64,000 bases of DNA. Origin: Trifolium pratense. Its lineage: Eukaryota > Streptophyta > Magnoliopsida > Fabales > Fabaceae. Position numbers and translations under genes: made by a program. The DNA lies in assembly GCF_020283565.1 (NCBI RefSeq), contig NC_060064.1, forward strand, positions 24,386,337 through 24,450,336, read 5' to 3'. Of this stretch, positions 4,052-64,000 are shown in pieces; positions within the stretch are counted from its first letter, which is position 1; each line of letters begins with the position of its first letter. The notes under the pieces are model-generated. The model worked only from the letters and a program-made list of their open reading frames with translations. It was not told the origin of the DNA and did not search any database.

Positions 4052-7000
4052 ATGGCAGCATCACCAGCATACCAAGAATATCTTCCAACATCACCAGGAT
4101 GGTTAAACAAAGGAGACAACGCATGGCAAATGACAGCAGCAACACTAGTTGGACTTCAAAGCATGCCAGGATTAGTAATTCTGTATGCAAGCATAGTGAA
4201 AAAAAAATGGGCAGTGAATTCAGCTTTCATGGCACTTTATGCTTTTGCAGCAGTTTTAATCTGTTGGGTTCTTGTTGCTTATAGAATGGCATTTGGTGAT
4301 CAACTTTTACCCTTTTGGGGTAAAGGAGCACCAGCTTTAGGACAAAAGTATCTTATTGGAAGAGCAAAAGTACCTGAAAGTACTCACTATTACAAGAATA
4401 GTCATGTTGTTGAATCACAAATGGAACAACCTTTTTTTCCTATGGCTTCACTTGTTTATTTTCAGTTTACTTTTGCTGCTATTACTATGATTTTGTTGGC
4501 TGGTTCTGTTCTTGGAAGGATGAATATTAAAGCTTGGATGGCTTTTGTTCCTCTTTGGCTTATTTTTTCTTATACTGTTGGTGCTTTTAGTCTTTGGGGT
4601 GGTGGATTTCTTTACCATTGGGGTGTTATTGATTATTCTGGTGGCTATGTTATTCATCTCTCTTCTGGAATTGCTGGTTTCACTGCTGCTTATTGGGTAC
4701 TTAAATTTCTGTTTTTTTCAGTATCCTTCATCTAATTTTGCTTCCAAAACTTCATTTTTATTATGTTTTAAGACTCCGGTTCTTAGGAGAAAGCGACTCT
4801 GGTAATTCAGAGTTCGGCCGAGAGGTAAATACGGGGTTTTCTTTGTTCAGGATTCAAATTTAAGTTCTCCTGAATGATTTGTCTTTACTTAAGCTGATTT
4901 ACAACTTGAGCCAAACCAATTGGTTTTAAAAAACTTCCTTTCATCATATGGGATGCATAAATTTTGTATTTTTTTAACAACCCTTCTTCTAATTTTGCTT
5001 AAAGACTTAAAGGGTACCTTCCCTTTCCTCATGGAGTACATAAATTTCAATTTTTTTCACAAACCATCATCTAATTTTGTTTAAAAGCTTAATGGGTACT
5101 TTTCTTTCTTCATGTGGTTGAGTTGATTTGTTTTTATTTAATTTTCTATGGTAGTTATGTTATTTATGAATTAATTGGTTGTTGGTTTTGGCATTAAATA
5201 CTCAATCAAGATTTTAAAATTTCTGTGGCTATAGTTGCAATGACAGTGATTATTAAAGTTATGAATAGCAGAAATATCTAAAACTTCAAATAACTATGGT
5301 TGTGACTTGTGATTGCAATTGGACTCTGCAGTTAAAAATTAAACATAAGTACAGACGTACAGTTCATAAAAACCATTAACCAATTATTGTTTCACAGTTT
5401 ATATTGGCTACTTGAGTAATTCCCAAGTCAATTCTCAACTGTTGAATTAAGTCAACAGTTTAGAGTGTTGATCTCTTATTGGTTAGATTAATTTAATGAC
5501 TGAGCTTTTACACATATAGTGCTGACACTTCTGATCGAAGGTGTGTCTGATGTCTGACACGACACTGAGACATGCGATTACACTCAATTAATCCATTTCT
5601 CAAACTATTGTTAGCGTCGACGTGTCACTGTCGTGTCAGGTGTCCTTGTCTGAGTTGGTGCTTCATAGCATTTTTCAGCAGAAGATCCAATTATGTAATT
5701 CTACATACTCATTCATTTTTGGTGTGTGCAGGTTGGACCAAGAATAAAGAGTGATAGGGAAAGGTTTCCACCAAACAATGTGTTACTGATGCTTGCAGGT
5801 TCTGGATTGCTATGGATGGGTTGGTCAGGTTTCAATGGTGGAGCACCATATGCAGCAAATGTTGCATCTTCAATTGCTGTGTTGAACACTAACATTTGTG
5901 CAGCAACTAGTCTCTTAGTGTGGACTACTCTTGATGTCATTTTCTTTGGGAAACCTTCTGTGATTGGTGCTGTTCAGGGTATGATGACTGGACTTGTTTG
6001 CATCACACCAGGAGCAGGTATATATTTATATCAGTTTGTTATTCTAGCTGAATATTTATTCTGTTTTTGATATTGGAAACTTGTTTTTGTGGATGAATCA
6101 AGTGTTGTTATGAAAATGTTTTATGGTATACTAGAGTTTGAATTTGATGTCAATACATGAAAAGTATGATTAAATTATGTGCTATGAATCTCACATTGAG
6201 TACATAAGAAAAGCTCAGTGTGATAGTTAAGTTACGAGACTATGTTAATCAGTTTGTCGTAACAATTGGTGTTTTCGTTGACAAGTGAACTATAGAAAGA
6301 GTTACATACATATGTAGGATAAATTAGTGAAACTGCCATAAAGAGAAAAGCCTACCACTATGTCAATGTCAATAAAGTGAAATCCACAATTTACGGTGAC
6401 TCTTAATGGAGTCGCGATGTTATAAATCTGACATTGAGTAAATAAGAAAAGATCAATGTGACATTTAACTACTTATCTCACAAGACTCTTCCACCTAAGA
6501 TCTTTGTCTTTTGAATTTGACTCTCCTCGTAAACTTAAATCGGACAAATTTCAAAATTGAAAATATGAATTTTATGTTAATGAAAATGAAGTTTATATTT
6601 TCTTAAAGGGTCTTGTTAACATCTGCCCTTAGGGCACATGATAAGATATACCAAAATAGTAATTCAACATTTAATGATACAAGAAATTTAATGCTTTAAA
6701 AGTCAAAATACACAAATTAGCATTTAATAATTTCTATTTTTGCTTCCTTAACATGTGCCTTAAGGGCACAAGTTAACATTTTCCTTTCTTAAAATCATCA
6801 AAAACATTAACTGAAATTGGAGAAAGTAGGTATGAACATTTATTGCAAGAATAATGTCTGTTGGGCACTGATATTTTGATATAGTACTCACAAAAAGTAG
6901 GTATTAATAGGTTTTAAATAGTGGTTGCGGTCGCAGTCGGGTCAAGAATTTCGCGATTTCAGCTGTTACGTCTGTTGCGTTATGAAATACGGTCGTCGCG

Positions 7001-39890: not shown

Positions 39891-42800
39891 TTACGGAGGA
39901 TTTGGGGGACGGCTATTGGCAGCAGAGACCCTGGAACCCCACTCAAGCACCTCTTTGCTAGTGTCATCCTTGTGAACAATAACTTCAATGAAACACAAGC
40001 TGTCTTTCTTTGGTCCTGTTGCTGTAGCAATTGCTTCAACTAGCTCCTCTTCACATAATACCTGAAATAACCATGCATGAATCAGCACTTAATCAGCAAT
40101 TATATATATATCCATGTTAAGTAGAAGTTTGACGGTTTGAGGGGTATACATCACAATGTCAAGAAACTCACCTTGGCAGTCCAACATTTTCCTTCGCCAT
40201 TGTGAATTGCATCAATCAATCCAGTGTAGTTCCAGTTCTTGATAACATTGTATGGACCATCATGAATTTCAACCTCAATGGTGTATCCGCCGTTGTTTAT
40301 AAGGAAGATGATTGTATTCTGACCACATCGCAGCATTGTTGATACGTCCTGCGCAGTTACCTGCAAAGAATTTAAGAGAAAGATAAAATAAATACCATGT
40401 ATGTTGATTTGAAATCACGTTTTAAGTATTTATGTAAGACAAACCTGAAAGCTTCCATCACCAATGCAAGCAATGACTCGCTTCTCGTGAACCGCTTGTG
40501 CATATCCAAGAGTTGCACCAACAGACCATCCAATTGAGCCATATTGCATTTGAAACTCATACCTGGAGGCAAGATATTATCAGCACCGTAAACAACAGGA
40601 AGAAAAAATTGAAAACTACAACAAATCGCATTCTCTCAACACTTACCTACATCCCTCAGGCAATTTCAACTTTTGGCAGTTAAACCATGAGTCCCCTGTC
40701 TCAGCAATCACAACTGTTTCACTGGACAACATCTGTTGTATATGTTGGAACATAACATTAACCCTCAAAGGTTCTTTTGGTGCAAACTTCAAAGGTGTCC
40801 CATTTGGGACAAATATCCTACGATAATTTTCATATGCAACATTGTTGTGTTTGAGACGCTTTGCAAGTGAATTGAGGAAATCCTTCATCAGCACACATCC
40901 AAATGACGGTCCATTAGCAATCACAACCCGTTCGGGCTGCACAATGATTGCCTTCTCTTTATTTAGAAGAAGTGAATACCCAACAGAGCTGTAGTCATTG
41001 AAAATTGGGCCAGCAAACAAGTATGCATCAGCTGATTCCACAATCTCCACACAGAATGCCGTACTCACAGCACCCCAATAAGTTCCAATGAAATGGGGAT
41101 GGTGCTCGGGGACCATCCCTTTAGCTGATGGCATTGCCGCAAATACGTAACCACTCGCATCGGCCAGTTCGACAAAGGCATCGGATGCTTTAGCCACCCT
41201 CAGTTTAGGACCACCTACTAGTACAGGTTTCACTGCTTTGTTAAGAAACTCTGCTGCTGCCTCAACTGCTGCTTCCAACCCCATCTGGTTAGTCAATCTA
41301 CAATAATTGGTTCCGCCACAAAACAGTTAACAATTAAGTGTATGTTTTGGTCAAAGTTTGCCAAACATGATTTTCTTTTAACATGCATGTTTGGATTAAC
41401 AGTAAGTTTGGCAAAATAACAGTGACACCATGTTTCTGTTAAAGCTGCAAAGTGTAGTTTTTGCTAAAATCACAATGTATCACTGTGATTCTGCCAAACT
41501 CACCATCAAGTTTGGTGTAAGCTTTTCAACCTAAAAAAAAAAATTCAGTTACTTTATATGATTTCTATGTGAAAGACTTACTTGGGAGCGCGCGAAAAAG
41601 GGACAGGCTCACGGCTGAAAGTTGGGTGAGGAATTGCAGGCAAGTTACAGCTAATGCTTATGTAAACAGGCTTGCTCTCTTTCAGTGCAGTGGAGATTGC
41701 TGTATCAATCAACTCATGAGCATCTTCCAAGTGATTCACCACAGCCTATTATCAAAACTAACCACAATCAAAACAATCACCAAAACCCTTTTTTTACAAA
41801 CAATTAACTCATCAACTTCACAGAGTGCAACAAAACCAGTGGTAGTTGTATAAGTTTTGTTCAAATTCCGCTACACTATAGCAAAAACAATCACCCCCAT
41901 TTGACAACACTTTATACTAAATACACATAGTATTGCAAAACAATAATGATAAGGTAAAATTCCTCTTAGCGCTATAGCGCCACTATTAACAACTAAATGA
42001 AAATACTACAAAGATAAAATTGGCATCATACAAATCAAGCCAGTTTTTGAATATGTAATAACAAATTTTAAAGAATTTAGATTTCTAGTCAATTCAAATG
42101 ATTCAATTGAATTTCTTCATTTCTAAATGTTTTTATTTAAACCAATTAATAAAAAGTTTCATTGTTAATATTTTTGGGCTATGTTTACAAATTTTAAAGT
42201 TTTATATCAAATTTGAAAAATAGGACCAATTTGCAATTTTTGAAAATTTATAAGCAGGTGTTATCCCATATTTTAGTCGAGCTAAAATATGTTTTTATCT
42301 TTGATTCCAAAGACTTTGACTCTATCAAAGTTCATTAATTTCAGCTTTCATAAAGTGAGACATAAATGTCTTCAAGAACAAGAGAAATTATATTTAATCA
42401 TCTCATTTATGAAAGTTAAGGGTAATATCTTTAAGAATAAGAGAGTTCTAATGGAAAGTATTTTGAAAAGGATGGATTCATTGTCCTATTTCTAAGTTAA
42501 AAAGGCAAAAGATAGAAGGATAACTTAGTTTCCTTTGTTATAAGGAAATATTGCCTTTCGATCGTCTGGTGTTCGATTGCAGTTAGGAAATCGAAATACT
42601 AATGATTGTGGACTTAGAAAATCTTTTCATTTTTTGAAATACGATTCGATTTCGACGGTTGCAGCGTTTCAAAGCATTGTTTCATTTCAAATGAAGAAGG
42701 ACGCGTGGCAGAAAACTATTATTATAACATAGCAGTTACTTATGTTGTCTATAAATACTAGTTTGTAAGTCGAAATAAGGGTCACAATTCACATACACAA

Positions 42801-44240
42801 ACTCTCAAAAACTCAAAGTATCCATGCTAAAGCGAGAAATGAGTACAACGAGAAACATGTATGAATCAGTGAACCATTATTTCTTATTTGTAAATATTTA
42901 CATTTCAATGCAAAGTTAGATTTTTACAAAGTCTTTACTTCTGAAGTTTTCTCTTATTGCATTTAAATGGTTCTCTCATTCGAGTGAACTTTCTTGTCAT
43001 TTATGTTCAATTTATGATTTACATGTTTCTTTTCATAACCTTTACCTTTAAAACCTTTTACTTTAAATACCCTTTTATTACAAATTAATGTTGCATTTAA
43101 TGATGAACATTCAAAACTCTTTTAATCCAACGCACAAACACTTGTCCCGAGATTTACTAGTTGATCTCTCAAGTAATTAATTTAAACTAGCGGTTATTTG
43201 CCAAAAATCAGTGTAAACAGCAGATCAATTTGAAATTTTTGAAGAAAATATGGGAATCAACTTGCAAAATTATAAGAAATTCCAAATTTCTACCTTTAGG
43301 TGTGATTTTTTATTTTTTGACAATAAAAAAAATATAAGATATTCCAAATTTCTACCTTTAGGTGTGATTTGAAATTTCTTATATTTAATAAAAAAAATTA
43401 AATATGTTTTAGTCCTCTAGATATACAAAGTTTTATTTTTAGTCCTCAAAACATTATTAATATCATTAAAAACATATCACTTCATAACAAAAACATATCA
43501 TTATTAATATCATAAAAATTCATAGACTAAAAACATATTTAACTATTAACAAATTACTTCATAATTGTGATCGAGAAGAGGCTGAAATCACTCGATGTCA
43601 AAACTAACTCCGAACCAGATTAGGTGGTCCCCAGAAAAATGATCTTAACTTGGTCCAGTCCACTACTGAAAAAAGTCAAACAAAAAAAGTAAAAGATTGT
43701 AAATTTGGTACCAACCTGAAAGCAAGTAACGGTTTGAAAACACCTCAATTCTTGGCTGAAATCAGATATCCCAATGGTATGATGAAGAATTCTGTTAGTT
43801 CCATAATCATTGGAATTAGGTCCACCAACAATACAAATAAGCGGCAAATCCTCACTATAAGCACCAGCTATAGCATTAAGAACACTCAAACCACCAACAG
43901 TGAACGTAACAACACAAGCTCCGACGCCACGTGATCGAGAGTAACCGTCGGCGGCATACCCAGCGTTAAGCTCATTACAGCAACCGATTACGTTAAGCTT
44001 TGGTTCAGCAATGAGGTGGTCGAGAAGTGTAAGGTTGAAGTCACCGGGAACTGAGAAAATGTCGGTGATTCCGATTTGAACTAGCCTCCGTGCTAGGTGG
44101 CGGCCTAGAGTAGCATTGGCGGAGGAAATCGCCGTGGACGACGATTGGATCGTTGTTGTGCTGCTGGTTGGTGTTAAGCATGAAACAACGTGGTTGCTTG
44201 TTGGCTTGTGTAAGTCTAAAGAGCTTAACATTGTGTCCAT
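39891..44240 (-). CDS. PDC: Pyruvate decarboxylase, copy A (six exons)
   Basis: Cytosolic ThDP- and Mg-dependent enzyme converting pyruvate to acetaldehyde and CO2, the first step of ethanol fermentation in low oxygen. Minus-strand exons: 44240-43716, 41745-41582, 41297-40647, 40562-40445, 40360-40172, 40061-39891; all introns GT-AG; 605 residues, normal for plant PDC. Visible sites: the cofactor-activating Glu90 in [14 protein letters not shown], His153-His154 in ILHHTIG, and the ThDP motif from GDG (481-483) to NN (508-509) in [16 protein letters not shown] form. The divergent N terminus (residues 1-40) is Ser/Thr-rich as usual. The ATG at 44240 gives [10 protein letters not shown], which matches copy B. 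Intron 1 is long (1970 bp) because of inserted repeats. Head-to-tail with copy B 1.1 kb upstream. Enzyme activity is inferred from complete motifs. Confidence 0.95.
42258..43219. mobile_element. Possible solo LTR in PDC-A intron 1
   Basis: Begins TGTTATCCC and ends GTGTAAACA; flanks gcagg and gcaga agree at 4 of 5 bases. A TATA-like ctataaatacta at 42750 is followed by an A/C-rich leader-like tract, as in LTRs. The stretch is absent from intron 1 of copy B. Tentative. Confidence 0.3.
43272..43375. repeat. Tandem duplication in PDC-A intron 1
   Basis: 'attccaaatttctacctttaggtgtgattt' occurs twice about 60 bp apart, separated by a T/A-rich spacer. Copy B has only a related single version. Confidence 0.7.
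43398..43536. mobile_element. Small MITE-like element in PDC-A intron 1
   Basis: 'attaaatatgttttagtcctc' at the left and 'agactaaaaacatatttaac' at the right are inverted, the type seen at the ends of the Mutator MITE at 730-1147. No clear duplication. Confidence 0.4.
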
Positions 44241-44340
44241 TTTGGTAATGGTTTGGTTTAAAAGGGTAATAAAGAGAACAAATATGAAGTGCTTGTGTTT
44301 CTTGTTGTTCAATGGTTTCAAGTTAGAAATGGAAGGAGAC

Positions 44341-44363
44341 TTATATATATATATATATATATC
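44341..44363 (-). promoter_or_regulatory. TATA box of PDC-A, expanded to (TA)n
   Basis: A run of about ten TA units about 100 bp upstream of the copy A start codon. Copy B has a plain TATATATAAAG at the equivalent place, so the run seems to be a microsatellite expansion of the TATA box. Confidence 0.5.
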
Positions 44364-45343
44364 AAAAACGCATGCACTCTTCTAAATAACAACTAACTCT
44401 ATCTATCGTATCTTCCATTCCTCAACTGTTATTCCTTTTCTTTCAGCCTAAGCCTAGTAACAATACGTACGCAATGCAAACCCCTTTTCTTTTTCAGCCG
44501 GTGCACTCTTTAAATCGCTACCGTCCATTCTAATGCATCTCACCCGTTGTTTAAAAGGATTTAACCCCCTTTTTTTTTTACCCAAAAGAAATAAATCCTA
44601 ATTTACTCGTAAAAATATTTCAAATTTCAATTTCATTTTTACTTCTTTTTAAAAAAAATTAGTAATCACATATTTTCTGTTATAAATTTTGGTCGTGTTC
44701 TTCAGTAAACTTATGTATATCTTTCAAAATTTTGAATTTTTTGCGCAGTAATGTTTAGTACACTATAGAAATTTTTCTTGCAAAAGTTTAAATATTTTTA
44801 ACGATGGATCATATTTAAAAGAGTATCGATCACCGGAGACTAAGAAGAGACAACATAAAACTTATTTATAGAGATTCGAAAAATTAGAGAAATAGAAATA
44901 AAACAAATATGAAGAGAATATTGGAGATATGGTTTGCTTTATGTGAGGGATGTATCAAGCAAGCAAAGTAGGCAATATGTTTTTAATAAAATCATCCGAG
45001 GATCATAGATTTCATCACAAGCAAAAGGTTCCTAACCCAATCCAATCATACTTTTATTATGTGAAAATATATTTAAAACAAGTTATAGACAATGGGATAA
45101 CCATTTGCAATCGTCCCCTTTCGGGCTGGCAATTAACGGGATACCCCGCGAAAACAATATGGAGATCCTCTCATATCCTTAAACGCACGGTAAGTGCAAT
45201 ACAGTGGTCATAACTTAGAGGATCAAGACATACATAAACAAGAAATCTATCAATAAAAGTAAATCCCAACTAAAAGAGCTCTTATTTTTTTAGAATCAGA
45301 TTACAATTTCAGCATTCTAGCAACAATAGATTGGTTCTGAAGT
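44364..45343. other. PDC-A/PDC-B spacer
   Basis: Promoter of copy A and 3' flank of copy B. No other gene or clear element. Confidence 0.5.
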
Positions 45344-48300
45344 TTACTGAGGATTTGGAGGACGACTATTGGCAGCAGAGACCCTGGAACCCCACTCAAG
45401 CAACTCTTTGCTAGTGTCATCCTTGTGAACAATCACTTCAATGAAGCATAAGCTCTCTTTCTCTGGTCCTGTTGCTGTGGCAATTGCTTCTACAAGCTCC
45501 TCTTCACAGAACACCTGAAAAATAAAGCACGCGTGAATCAACATTTATATCCATGTTACAGAAGTTTGAGGAATATATATTACAAAGTTAAAAGACTCGC
45601 CTTCGTAGTCCAACATTTTCCTTCGCCATTGTGAATTGCATCAATCAATCCAGTGTAATTCCAGTTCTTTATAACATTGTATGGTCCATCATGAATTTCG
45701 ACCTCAATGGTGTATCCACCGTTGTTTATCAGGAAGATGATGGTTTTCTGACCACATCTCAGCATTGTAGATACATCCTGAGCAGTTACCTATAAATCAT
45801 TAAAGACAAAGGTAAAAAACCATGTTCAAGAATAAATTACATTTTGAATGTAATCATGATTTAAGTAGTTTATGCAACCTGAAAGCTTCCATCACCAATG
45901 CACGCAATGACTCGCTTCTCTGGGACCGCTTGTGCGTAGCCAAGAGTTGCACCAACAGACCATCCAATTGAGCCATATTGCATTTGAAACTCATACCTGC
46001 CAACAAGACTTTATCAGCACCATCCACAACATGAACAAAAAATGGAAAAATATAACAAATCACATTCCCAAAACACTTACCTACATCCCTCCGGCAATTT
46101 CAACTTTTGGCAGTTAAACCATGAGTCCCCTGTCTCAGCAATCACGGCAGTTTCACTAGATAACATCTGTTGTATATGTTGGAACATAACATTAACTCTC
46201 AAAGGTTCTTTTGGTGCAGACTTCAAAGGTTTCCCATCTGGGATAAATATCCTATGGTAATTTTCATATGCAGCATTGTTATGTTTGAGACGCTTAGTGA
46301 GTGCCTTGAGGAAATCCTTCATCGATACACATCCAAATGCAGGTCCATTAGCAATGACAACCCGATCGGGCTGAACAATAATCGCCTTCTCTTGCTTGAG
46401 AAGAAGTGAATACCCAACAGAACTATAGTCATTGAAAATGGGACCCGCAAACAAGTATGCATCAGCTGATTCCACAATCTCCGCACAGAATGCAGTACTC
46501 ACTGCACCCCAATAAGTTCCAATAAATTGGGGATGGTGCTCTGGGACCATCCCTTTAGCTGATGGCATTGTGGCAAATACGTAACCACTCGAATCTGCTA
46601 GTTCGACAAAGGCATCAGATGCTTTTGCCACCCTAAGTTTAGGACCACCAACTAGTACAGGTTTCACTGCTTTGTTGAGAAACTCTGCTGCTACCTCAAC
46701 TGCTGCTTCCAACCCCATCTGGTTAGTTAATCTACAAAACACCCCAAAGCAAAAAAAATAAACAAAAATTAGAGAAAATACTAATAATCCACATTTCCAA
46801 TAATTGGTTCCTCCACAAAATTATTAATAATTAGGCGCCTAATAATTATGTTTAGGTCAAAGTTTGCCAGACATGATTTTCATTAAAATTGTATATTTTG
46901 ATTAACAATGTGTTTGGCTAAATAACAGTGACACCATGATTATTCTTTTTTTTTTTGGGCATAAATTGGGTAGATCTGTGCGCAACTGCAGAGACTAATC
47001 CCTCGAGCCTTGTGGGACCCAAATGGATTGCAAACTCTTCCTGAGTTTTAAAAGTGACATCATGATTCTGTTAAAGCTACAAAGTGTAGTTTTCACTAAA
47101 ATCACAACGGATCACTGTGATCTGCCAAACTCACCGTCAAATTTGCCGTAAACTTTTCGACCTAACTCAAAATGTTAGTTACTTTGTATGATTTCTATGT
47201 GAAACCAAATACAAGCTAGTTACTAAAAAAGAACAAAGGGAGAAAAAAAAACTTGCTTGGGAGTGTGTGAAAAAGGGACAGGTTCACGACTGAAAGTGGG
47301 GTGAGGAATTGAAGGCAAGTTACAGCTAATGCTTATGTAAACAGGCTTGCTCTCTTTCAATGAAGTTGAGATTGCTTTATCAATCATTTCATGAGCATCT
47401 TCCAAATGATTCACCACAACCTATTATCAAATCAAACCACAATCAAAATAATCTCCAAAAACCATTTTTTACAAACATCCAACTAATAAATAGTGTAAAG
47501 AAGAAATTTCAAATTATTAATTTTAAGGTGTCATTTTTTTTTTACTACAGATGTCATTTGAAATTTCTTATGCACAAAATAATTTTGGTAGAAAAAAAAA
47601 ACTGATTAAATACAAGTTACGACCATAATTATAAACAAATATTCTTTTTGAGTTTTTATTTTTAATGGTCACCAAATATGAATCTGGATTAGACGCAGGA
47701 ACTACGTCACACAGTTACTATTTCTAAACATTTAATTTGAAATCGACATTTGGGGTTATTTATAGTTGATTTTATTAATATGTAATTGAGTTGTCCGGTT
47801 ATAAATATTCAAAAGATTGTAAAATTGCTTTTATTTTTACACCAGGTTATAGTTTTTTTTTTTTCGTCAAATGGGTAGGAACCTCTCCCTAAAAGTTTTA
47901 ACACTGGTGCATGCCCAAACCAGGAATCGAACCTAAAACATTTGATTAATTATAAATGAACGATTAGGATTCAAAATAGCGTGCAACTGCATGCTTTTTT
48001 TATGGCAGGTAATCATGATCCTATCAATTACATTAATTATTCGATTAATATGAAAAAGTGAATATTTGCTTATAATTAATATCGGAAGTTAATTCACAAA
48101 TTCTCCACATTTTAAACATTTTTCCATGTTCAATCATTCTGGAATTTAAAAATTTGAAGACAAGTGAAACCAAAAAGTAAAAGATTGTAAATTTGGAACC
48201 AACCTGGAAGCAAGTAACGGTTTGAAAACACCTCAATTCTTGGCTGAAATCAGGCACACCAATGGTATGATGAAGAATTCTGTTAGTTCCATAATCATTG

Positions 48301-48731
48301 GAATTAGGTCCACCAACAATACAAATAAGCGGCAAATCCTCACTATAAGCACCAGCTATAGCATTAAGAACACTAAGTCCACCAACAGTGAACGTAACAA
48401 CACAAGCTCCGACACCGCGTGAACGAGCATAACCGTCAGCAGCGTATCCAGCATTGAGCTCGTTACAACAACCGATTACGTTAAGCATTGGTTCGTCAAT
48501 TAGGTAGTCGAGAAGTGTAAGGTTGAAGTCACCGGGAACTGAGAAAATGTCGGTGATTCCGATTTGAACTAGCCTCCGTGCTAGGTGGCGGCCTAGAGTA
48601 GCATTGGCGGAAGAAATTGCCGTTGAAGTTGACGACGGTTGGGTCGTTGCTGTGCCGTTTGGTTTTAAGCATGAAACGACGTCATTGCCGGTTGGATTGC
48701 TTAAGTCTAAAGAGCTTAACATTGTGTCCAT
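45344..48731 (-). CDS. PDC: Pyruvate decarboxylase, copy B (six exons, two GC-AG introns)
   Basis: Same enzyme and exon plan as copy A. Exons: 48731-48204, 47420-47257, 46731-46081, 45996-45879, 45789-45601, 45514-45344; exons 2-6 have the same lengths as in copy A (164, 651, 118, 189, 171), giving 606 residues. The [17 protein letters not shown] and GDG…NN motifs are all present. Odd: intron 2 begins GCAAGT and intron 5 begins GCGAGT where copy A has GTAAGT and GTGAGT. Only these GC sites keep the reading frame, so two of five introns must be GC-AG. Intron 2 also holds a SINE absent from copies A and C. The frame is open throughout, so the gene is probably functional; low splicing efficiency is possible. 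Confidence 0.9.
46942..47052 (-). mobile_element. SINE in PDC-B intron 2
   Basis: A T run (tail read in reverse) begins the insert, whose body contains 'gggtagatctgtgcgcaactg' and 'aatccctcgagccttgtggg'. It is flanked by 15-bp repeats agtgacaccatgatt (46927-46941) and agtgacatcatgatt (47053-47067). Copies A (about 41418) and C (about 63923) have one copy of that site and no insert, which proves insertion. Confidence 0.88.
47860..47945 (-). mobile_element. Possible SINE in PDC-B intron 1
   Basis: A T run followed by 'ggtaggaacctctccct' and 'aaccaggaatcgaacct' (inverted box-B-like). No target duplication found. Confidence 0.4.
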
Positions 48732-56423: not shown

Positions 56424-58865
56424 ATGGACCTTAAATTTTTGTTTTCAACTCTCCTCATTACTCCTTTTTTTCTGATAACCTTTCATAGCAATGCTGAGAC
56501 TTCCACATATATAATTCATATGAACAAATCCTTATTTCCTCAAATTTTCATGACTCATAATGATTGGTTCAAATCCACCATTCATTCCTTAAAATCAAAA
56601 ACACTACTTGATGATCCTGATCAACATGCACAGAAGAAACTATTGTACACCTATGATAATGCCATGTATGGATTTAGTGCATTGTTAACTTCAAATGAGT
56701 TAGAAACTCTTAAGAACATTGATGGCTTTGTTGCAGCATATCAAGATAGAACAGCTACAATTGACACAACTCACACCTTTGAATTTCTCTCCCTAGATTC
56801 TCCAAATGGACTATGGCATGCTTCAAATTTCGGAGATGATATCGTTGTTGGTGTTATTGATTCCGGTGTGTGGCCTGAGAGTCAAAGCTTTAAAGATGAT
56901 GGAATGACAAAGAAAATTCCAAACAAATGGAAAGGAACCTGTCAAATTGGTCAAGAATTCAATGCTTCAATGTGTAACTTCAAATTGATTGGAGCTAGAT
57001 ATTTCAACAAAGGTGTTATTGCTTCAAATCCAAATGTTACTATTAGCATGAATTCAGCTAGAGACAATATAGGACATGGAACTCACACATCATCAACTGT
57101 TGCAGGTAACTATTTTTTTTTTTTTTAATATACAAATGTTAGTAAATCATGTTAGTTTCGGACTTTCGAGAGTTTGAACTTTGGATTTCCGTATTAGTAC
57201 TCCTTCGATGTCTCTCAGCTCACCAACCGAGTTGTCTGCTTTGGACTTACAGGTAACTATGTTGACGGCGCTTCTTATTTTGGTTATGCAAAAGGAATAG
57301 CAAGAGGCATTGCACCAAAAGCTAAAATTGCTATGTACAAAGTAATTTGGCAAGAGGGCCGTTTGGCCTCGGATGTTTTGGCTGGAATGGACCAAGCAAT
57401 TATTGATGGTGTTGATGTGATTTCAATTTCAATGGGATTTGATGATACTCCACTTTTTGAAGATCCTATAGCAATAGCTTCATTTGCAGCTATGGAAAAA
57501 GGGATTGTTGTTTCATCTTCAGCAGGTAATGCAGGACCTCAACTTGGAACCTTGCACAATGGTATCCCCTGGCTCATTACAGCAGCTGCAGGCACAATTG
57601 ATAGAACCTTTGGTACTCTTGTTTTGGGAAATGGTCAAAACATTATTGGTTGGACTTTGTTTCCAGCAAATGCTATAGTTGAAAATCTTCCACTTGTTTA
57701 CAATAACACTGTCTCTTCATGCAATTCAGTGGAGCTCTTATCTCAACTTAACAAACAAGTCATCATTCTTTGTGATGAATCAATGTCAAACTCAAACACA
57801 AACTCGGTGTTTGAACAAATCAGAGTTGTGGCAGCAACAAGTATGTTCGGGGCAGTTTTTATCTCTGATAATCCTGGTTTAATTGACACAAGATTACTTT
57901 ACTCACCAAGTATTGTAATCAAGCCGAAAGATGCAGAATATGTGATCAACTATGCGAAAAGCATTAAGAATCCTACAGCCAGCATTAAATTTCAACAAAC
58001 ATTTGTTGGAACAAAGCCAGCACCAGCTGCAGCACATTACTCATCAAGAGGTCCTTCACATTACTTTCCATGGATTTTGAAACCCGACATAATGGCGCCT
58101 GGCTCTAGAGTTCTTGCAGCTTATATTCCTACTAGACCATCAGCTAGAATCGGCACAAATGTGTACTTATCAAGTGACTACACTTTCATGTCAGGAACAT
58201 CTATGTCTTGTCCTCATGTTTCCGGTGTTGTTGCTCTTCTGAAATCAGCACATCCACAATGGAGTGTTGCGGCTATAAGATCGTCATTAATAACCACAGC
58301 TAGTCCTTTAGATAATACACAATATCCTATAAGGGATAATGGTTATCCTTCTCAATATGCTTCGCCTCTTGCTATTGGCGCCGGTGAAATTGATCCAAAT
58401 AGAGCCATGAATCCAGGTTTGATATATGATGCTACACCACAAGACTATGTTAATTTTCTTTGTGGTTTGAAGTTCACAAAGAACCAAATTTTAACAATTA
58501 CAAGATCAAATTCTTATGATTGTGAAAACCCTTCTTTGGATCTTAATTACCCTTCATTTATAGCATTATATAGCAACAAAACAAGATCAATGGTTCACAA
58601 GTTTAAGAGGACTGTTACTAATGTTGGTGATGGTGCTGCTACATATAGAGCTAAATTGACATATCCAAAGGGTTCTGTGGTGAAAGTGTCACCTGATATA
58701 TTAAATTTCAGTTATATAAATGAGAAACGAAGTTACTACATTAATATAAAGTATGTTATGTACAAGAATGAAAATGTTTCATTTGGAGATCTTGTTTGGA
58801 TTGAAGATGCTGGAACACACACGGTTAGAAGTCCTATTGTAATAGCACCTAGTGGAATTATATAA
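56424..58865 (+). CDS. SBT1-like: Subtilisin-like serine protease (SBT1 type), two exons
   Basis: A secreted peptidase acting in the cell wall. Exons 56424-57105 and 57253-58865; one 147-bp GT-AG intron; 764 residues, normal for plant subtilases. Signal peptide 1-24 (LFSTLLITPFFLITF…SNA), I9 propeptide about 28-110 (TYIIHMNKS…GFSALLTSNELE), peptidase S8 from about 115. Catalytic residues: Asp146 (GVIDSGVWPES), His218 (NIGHGTHTS), oxyanion Asn320 (SSAGNAGP), Ser544 (SGTSMSCPH). A PA-like insert lies at about 360-470, and a fibronectin-III-like end at about 660-760 (RTVTNVGDGAATYRA). The intron falls after Val-Ala-Gly, ten residues past the catalytic His. It consists of a SINE-like insertion and one copy of its target duplication. 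Without splicing the protein stops at residue 234. Most relatives in this family lack introns, as I recall. Substrate unknown. Confidence 0.92.
57114..57249 (-). mobile_element. SINE-like insertion forming the subtilase intron
   Basis: It lies between two copies of the 11-mer caggtaactat (57103-57113 and 57250-57260). On the + strand it begins with about 13 T's, the tail of an antisense insert. On the minus strand the body has a box-A-like AACTCGGTTGGTGAGC and a box-B-like AGTTCAAACTC, then ends in poly(A). Removing the insert and one 11-mer restores the unbroken reading frame VAGNYVDG. Confidence 0.75.
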
Positions 58866-62356: not shown

Positions 62357-63742
62357 TTACTGAGGATTTGGGGGACGACTATTGGCAGCAGAGACCCTGG
62401 AACCCCACTCAAGCAACTCTTTGCTAGTGTCATCCTTGTGAACAATCACTTCAATGAAACATAAGCTGTCTTTCTTTGGTCCTGTTGCTGTGGCAATTGC
62501 TTCCACTAGCTCCTCCTCACAGAATACCTGAAAATAAAGCATGCATGAATCAGCATTTAATCCATGTTACAGAAGTTTGAGCAGTATATATTACAATGTC
62601 AAGAGACTCACCTTGGTAGTCCAACATTTTCCTTCACCGTTGTGAATTGCATCAATCAATCCAGTGTAATTCCAGTTCTTGATAACATTGTATGGTCCAT
62701 CATGAATTTCAACCTCAATGCTGTATCCACCATTGTTTATCAGGAAGATGATGGTTTTCTGACCACATCGCAGCATTGTTGACACATCCTGTGCAGTTAC
62801 CTGCAAAACATTTAAGATAAGAAACCATATTCAAGAATAAATCAAATGTTGAACGAAAAACTCATACTTTAAGTAGTTATGCAGGACAAACCTGAAAGCT
62901 TCCATCACCAATGCAAGCAATCACTCGCTTCTCGGGAACCGCTTGTGCATAGCCAAGAGTTGCACCAACAGACCATCCAATTGAGCCATATTGCATTTGA
63001 AACTCATACCTGTCAACAAGATTTTATCAGCACAATAAACATGATTTTTTTAAAGAAAAACGCCACAAATCACATTCTCTCAAACACTTACCCACATCCC
63101 TCAGGCAATTTCAACTTTTGGCAGTTAAACCATGAGTCCCCTGTCTCCGCAATCACAGCTGTTTCACTGGACAGCATCTGTTGTATATGCTGGAACATAA
63201 CATTAACTCTCAAAGGTTCTTTTGGTGCAGACTTCAAAGGTTTTCCATCTGGAACAAATATCCTATGGTAATTTTCATAAGCAGCATTGTTGTGTTTGAG
63301 ACGCTTTGCAAGTGCCTTAAGGAAATCCTTCATCAAAATACATCCAAATGCAGGTCCATTAGCAACCACAACCCGGTCGGGCTGCACGATAATCGCCTTC
63401 TCTTTCTTGAGAAGAAGTGAATACCCAACAGAACTGTAGTCATTAAAAATGGGACCAGCAAACAAGTATGCATCAGCAGATTCCACAATCTCCGCACAGA
63501 ATGCAGTACTCACAGCACCCCAATAAGTTCCAATGAAATGGGGATGATGCTCCGGAACCATCCCTTTAGCTGATGGCATCACAGCAAGTGCGTAACCACT
63601 CACATCAGCCAGTTCAACAAAGGCATCAGATGCTTTTGCTACCCTCAATTTAGGACCACCAACTAGTACAGGTTTCACTGCTTTGTTAAGAAAATCTGCT
63701 GCTGCCTCAACTGCTGCTTCCAACCCCATTTGGTTAGACAAT
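62357..63742 (-). CDS. PDC: Pyruvate decarboxylase, copy C (3' part, runs off the right edge)
   Basis: Exons 3-6 of a third PDC gene: 63742-63092, 63009-62892, 62800-62612, 62527-62357, with the same lengths as in copies A and B (651, 118, 189, 171) and GT-AG introns. Encodes the central domain and the ThDP-binding domain (GDGSFQ, then [15 protein letters not shown]). Exons 1-2 must lie beyond the window; 64000 falls in intron 2. At the exon 3-4 junction this copy encodes Gly ([10 protein letters not shown]), the usual plant residue, where A and B encode Arg. It lies 13.6 kb from copy B with a subtilase gene between them on the other strand. No break is seen in the part present. Confidence 0.93.
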
Positions 63743-64000
63743 CTACAAAACACCAAAAGCGACAAACAAACAAAAATTAGATAAAATACCAATCATCCAC
63801 ATTTCAAATTATTGGTTCCTCCACAAAACAATCAACAATTAACTGTATTTTTAGGTGAATGCTTGGCAAACATGATTTTCAACAAAAGTGCGTGTTTGGA
63901 TCAGCAGTGAGTTTGGCGAAATCACAGTGACACCATGATTCTGTCAAACACACCGCTAAGTTTGGTGTAAACTTTTCAACTTAACACATAAAGTCAGTTA

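Follow-up and report, generated by a model that had tools for sequence, protein, structure and literature searches.

The origin of introns is a long-standing question, and mobile elements that turn into introns have been described in plants as well as in other organisms. The maize transposon Ds reportedly made an intron (Giroux et al. in 1994); a plant transposon that is spliced out is what this system has in common with the locus described here, Ds being a DNA transposon. The excerpt of PMC3443670 sets out a model in which a transposon inserts into AGGT and the resulting duplication provides both splice sites, and its table holds only 35 unambiguous transposon-made introns. The best known parallel is the catalase A gene of rice (work of Iwamoto et al. 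1998, as given in the excerpt of PMC2394776 and cited in PMC3443670), where likewise a plant SINE located in coding sequence turned into an intron. Among animals and land plants, according to the excerpted part of PMC9860276, Introners occur in two groups, both of them animal, and some of their families draw the 5' and the 3' splice site alike from the place of insertion.

We compared with these systems the only intron of a subtilase gene of red clover (Trifolium pratense), which appears to be a SINE. The duplicated AGGT giving both splice sites and the unchanged protein would be shared with the model in the excerpt of PMC3443670, whereas the clover element would be a retroposon and its repeats are still readable. 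Gene, lineage and SINE are other than in rice catalase A as excerpted in PMC2394776, and to that case the clover gene adds a paralogue with the empty site as well as a record of how the intron changed afterwards. With the Introners of the PMC9860276 excerpt it would share the use of a mobile element as an intron, while the clover SINE gave no sign of a many-intron family in a sample of 33 loci. We found no paper recognisable by its title or the start of its abstract as describing a SINE intron in a clover subtilase. The route of intron gain is thus already known and rarely documented, and the evidence supports well that the clover case is new and unusually detailed on the changes that followed the birth of the intron.

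The subtilase intron and its empty site

The analysed stretch of DNA, here called the window, is 64,000 bases long (24386337-24450336 of contig C6, which has 46,137,615 bases) and belongs to a 413.6-Mb assembly of 90 contigs, which was the genome searched. Its subtilase gene consists of two exons parted by one intron of 147 bases (Table 1). Direct reading shows two exact copies of the 11-mer CAGGTAACTAT on either side of a 136-base insert that opens with 13 T; the 5' GT comes from the first copy and the 3' AG from the second. When the insert and one repeat are excised, a 2295-nt frame of 764 codons and one terminal stop is obtained, joined as VAG-NYVDG, and when the intron is retained, the ORF ends after 234 aa at a stop just past the T run. 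The sequence-only reading of this DNA had already given these coordinates, the repeats, the insert, the frame, the junction and the stop at residue 234, all of which agree with our analysis. The spliced product matches the annotated Trifolium pratense subtilisin-like protease SBT3 (P0001) at 100% identity over 764 aa, and the junction in P0001 corresponds exactly to the intron. Among solved structures, the nearest to the host protein is a tomato subtilase of the SlSBT3 type (PDB 3i6s, E 2.4e-236), a likeness at the protein level only. Elsewhere in the window, repeated ORFs on the minus strand (40643-48731 and 63088-63792) appear by eye to be tandem pieces of pyruvate-decarboxylase-like genes.

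Table 1. Features of the subtilase gene and its intron (window positions; a slash marks the splice junction).
Feature	Position	Strand	Basis or remark
Subtilase exon 1 (SBT3-like, S8 peptidase: prodomain, catalytic Asp and His regions)	56424..57105	+	ORF; spliced product 100% identical to annotated P0001
Intron, phase-1 GT-AG, 147 bases (49 codons)	57106..57252	+	SINE plus one 11-mer copy
Target-site duplication, first copy, CAG/GTAACTAT	57103..57113	+	Putative source of 5' splice site
Target-site duplication, second copy, CAG/GTAACTAT	57250..57260	+	Putative source of 3' splice site
SINE copy, 136 bases, antisense to subtilase	57114..57249	-	Genome matches to copy and consensus
SINE A tail (A13)	57114..57126	-	In pre-mRNA a U run, eight bases after 5' splice site
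Candidate branch point CTCAC, its A 30 bases upstream of intron end	57219..57223	+	Sequence and consensus
Subtilase exon 2	57253..58865	+	ORF; P0001 identity; dN/dS 0.37 vs 39.9-Mb paralogue

The CAGGTAACTAT 11-mer occurs twice in the window against an expectation of 0.05, and none of 100 shuffles contained two copies. However, 142 exact 11-mer pairs lie 80-300 bases apart in this AT-rich window (sequences with fewer than three letter kinds were omitted), and because such pairs are abundant the repeat by itself counts for little; the case for a SINE-made intron is carried by the empty target in a paralogue and by the copies of the element elsewhere in the genome.

The empty-site comparison that the sequence-only reading had proposed was carried out on paralogues. 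In a protein search of the genome, 59 of 355 candidates were scored and 62 subtilase matches were listed, 51 of which span residue 228 unbroken with an excess over the query of at most 15 codons and, given this small excess, do not contain the 49-codon intron. The other 11 comprise six exon pieces of three intron-bearing genes and five matches that stop short of the site; the intron-bearing red clover subtilases among the matches listed lie on C6 at 24.44, 20.64 and 39.89 Mb. At 15 of the unbroken places the DNA itself was read. The closest intronless paralogue among the matches listed (C1:15404785-15407037, 68% identity) has a single unbroken copy of the target, GCCGGTAACTAT, and at the site it reads GTTGCCGGTAACTATGTC where the window gene reads GTTGCAGGTAACTAT. 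The dS between the two genes is 0.93, and the empty site is thus paralogous rather than orthologous. The marks of intron gain found here are an empty-site homologue with one target copy, which is this C1 paralogue and not an orthologue, and AGGT within both copies of the target duplication.

A dispersed SINE family in red clover

Copies of the insert with other flanks, a search for which had also been suggested, were found in two genome searches: the insert as query gave 18 matches, two being the insert-bearing subtilase copies, and the family consensus gave 40 scored matches out of 107 candidates, again with two in the subtilase copies. The other genome copies are only 72-93% identical to the window insert. 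The family shows the features of a SINE, with dispersed copies whose flanks differ except at duplicate places, an A-rich 3' tail in most copies complete at this end (A13 in the window copy), a short length without a protein-coding frame and target-site duplications of variable length (11 bp in the window copy). Flank repeats scoring at least 9 were present at 5 of 20 other places, as against 2.9% among 382 mismatched pairs of flanks; L074 and L076, both among these five places, share flanks and count as one event. A T run of at least 9 is present in all three red clover subtilase introns, including those of the 20.6- and 39.9-Mb copies.

The T run and poly(A) tail noted in the sequence-only reading are thus borne out, whereas the tRNA-type box motifs that it had seen in the window copy stand at chance level there (3 mismatches per box; P 0.85 for box A and 0.46 for box B in shuffles) and are recovered for the family instead. 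Boxes A and B in the right order and spacing, with at most 2 mismatches each, were found in 10 of 30 family copies and in 0.2% of shuffles (in this test L053/L063 are one place counted twice, and L064/L066 share flanks). Rfam gave no tRNA match in the window copy, and neither Rfam nor ARAGORN gave a tRNA-like structure in 20 other family copies. We regard the family as a SINE, probably with a tRNA-type promoter, which the box counts support for the family and not for the window copy.

Together with the empty site, the dispersed family makes it very probable that a SINE made the subtilase intron and that its target-site duplication gave both splice sites, as the sequence-only reading had proposed. 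Direct repeats with AGGT would also be left by an exon piece with AGGT that was duplicated in tandem or by filler DNA at a repaired break, both of which are named as mechanisms in the excerpt of PMC3443670; however, what lies between the clover repeats is a dispersed, A-tailed element with many copies and not exon sequence, and retroposition accounts jointly for tail, repeats and copies, which renders such an origin extremely unlikely.

Other introns of this kind were looked for among 33 sampled loci (32 distinct places) of the family. AGGT (as ACCT) occurs within 35 bases on both sides at three of them, two being the subtilase copies and one lying outside any coding frame, and the Introner-type pattern, in which one family provides introns in many genes, was not seen in this 33-locus sample. 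The locus C3:47055970-47056200 (L067/L077) has a clean 8-bp duplication, AATTAGGT, and was rejected as a second intron, its joined flanks giving no convincing reading frame. In a GH3 glucosidase-like gene, a SINE of the family lies antisense (L054, C6:11803808-11803924), five bases downstream of the donor CCAG/GTAACTTTTT. It was also considered as a second SINE-made intron; the intron ends at an ordinary, unrelated acceptor far from the SINE, and it looks like a SINE inserted into a pre-existing intron. Here a SINE stands right after the donor of an apparently ordinary intron, and the subtilase SINE might in the same way have entered an older intron whose splice sites were already present. We consider this very unlikely, as the subtilase intron consists of the SINE and one repeat and nothing else, 51 of the 62 subtilase matches listed are unbroken across the site and only insertion into an exon accounts for the CAGGTAACTAT repeat.

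Splicing, constraint and age

The donor CAG/GTAACT is fair by consensus save for a C at +5, where the consensus has G, the acceptor TTACAG/GT is fair, and plant splicing may be favoured by a U run immediately downstream of the donor. Between the window gene and the 39.9-Mb paralogue, exon 2 has a dN/dS of 0.37 (bootstrap 0.28-0.50), which indicates purifying selection, and in neutral simulations of one branch it remained stop-free in 1 of 2000. Annotated proteins of white clover read through the intron junction. From these junctions, the exon-2 constraint and the identity to P0001 we infer that the intron is actively spliced, in which the U run may take part. That splicing neutralised the insertion from the outset, as the sequence-only reading had it, would be a conjecture, the constraint measured being that of the present-day gene. 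A poorly spliced insert, in a gene that is dying or yields the 234-aa product, would fit the halt of translation upon retention, the missing consensus G at +5 and the comparison of the window and 20.6-Mb copies, which are only 9 exon bases apart and give a dN/dS of 0.89 (bootstrap 0.20-3.03), with too few differences to show constraint. It is nevertheless improbable in view of an exon 2 that is intact and constrained between two intron-bearing lineages and of the junctions read through in annotated clover proteins. The 2295-base subtilase frame contains five AGGT. An 11-bp duplication could be placed in it in some 2285 ways, about 40 of which would include an AGGT; most insertions here would thus be lethal to the gene, and the present one could be kept.

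Two further red clover genes carry the intron. The 20.64-Mb gene (L009) is a near duplicate of the window gene; eight intron columns differ between them, two of these as neighbouring-base swaps (57169-57170, 57191-57192), and gene conversion of the exons between the two copies is possible. The 39.89-Mb gene (L010) encodes a protein 84% identical to that of the window gene, at a dS of 0.247. Its intron of 241 bases comprises the SINE of the subtilase intron and an inserted element, it ends at the acceptor TAG/GT, and its second repeat keeps 10 of 11 bases; the distance between this intron and that of the window is 0.28, in an alignment of doubtful quality near the nested insert. A 104-base query taken from the nested element gave 61 genome matches (40 of 285 candidates scored), and the element (about 4155-4258, minus strand) appears to be MITE-like, several matches having both arms in opposite orientation. 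Silent rates are 6.5e-9 to 1.1e-8 per site and year, at which a dS of 0.25 corresponds to roughly 11-19 million years, the gain of the intron being older.

Protein searches extended the comparison to other legumes. A search with exon 1 and the intron start found 31 proteins at E 1e-60, two of which enter a T run (P0121 and P0122, ORFs of JGI metagenome contigs). P0122, with an exon 1 that is 95% identical to a white clover protein, ends in AGNFFFFLIYKC, to which LIYKC in the 20.64-Mb copy corresponds. P0121 ends in AGNYVNFFFFQTNCTKLC, and since its T run starts after NYVN, the upstream repeat there would be CAGGTAACTATGTTAA or longer and the first duplication probably 16-17 bp; the 11 bp given in the sequence-only reading thus apply to red clover today and probably not to the original size. 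In a search with the intron end and exon 2, for which the best 120 of 777 proteins were listed, P0152 and P0153, likewise ORFs of JGI metagenome contigs, have leaders ahead of GNYVNG, and in our reading of these protein ORFs the leaders back-translate to SINE ends with the SINE middle missing. In the exon-2 tree both group with P0010 and P0014, apart from the two clover pairs; the 16-row clade (100/98) also includes pea-tribe and chickpea proteins, the branching order at its base being unclear. P0121, P0152 and P0153 probably represent a further legume gene lineage with the intron, the evidence from other species consisting of back-translated protein ORFs. P0121 and P0153 sit on JGI contigs of 24,103 bases each. 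Pieces of legume genes thus turn up as ORFs on JGI metagenome contigs, and where a species has no named genome, its introns can be recognised from ORFs at exon edges in collections of this sort.

The gain had been called recent in the sequence-only reading, which does not agree with an intron common to three red clover genes, two of them at a dS of 0.25, and with the ORFs of other legumes. A recent gain confined to Trifolium might be argued from the unclear base of the legume clade, by which sharing may be partly overestimated, and from the other-lineage intron being known from back-translated ORFs only; it is hardly probable, as two clover genes with the same insert differ at dS 0.25 and P0121, P0152 and P0153, outside the clover pairs, enter the same T run or SINE end. 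The SINE intron thus appears to be old, its insertion having probably preceded the split of several clover and legume gene lineages.

Proposed origin and later history of the intron

In the course of events that we propose, the SINE would have been reverse-transcribed, in antisense orientation, into an intronless subtilase at the site CAGGTAAC, before the divergence of several gene lineages of clovers and related legumes. The duplication, probably 16-17 bp at first (CAGGTAACTATGTTAA, perhaps with one base more), would have set CAG/GTAAC at each end of the insert, the upstream copy serving as donor and the downstream copy as acceptor, so that the SINE and one repeat would be spliced out and the protein restored exactly. 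The antisense A tail would have placed a U run right after the donor. Later drift would have shortened the upstream repeat in clover, where 11 bp are left, while the splice sites were kept; one clover copy would have gained a MITE, and another lineage would have lost the SINE middle.

More tentatively, antisense SINEs might be ready-made plant introns, in which a duplication that spans AGGT gives the splice sites and the U run works from the first generation, and the locus might be a readable life history of an intron. If so, it would record a 16-17-bp duplication, the loss of repeat bases, the loss of the SINE middle and the growth by a MITE, with the splice sites alone being kept. Since the donor family, the target repeats, a paralogue with the empty site and several descendants of a single insertion are here readable side by side, what the duplication and the U run contribute would be directly testable in a plant.
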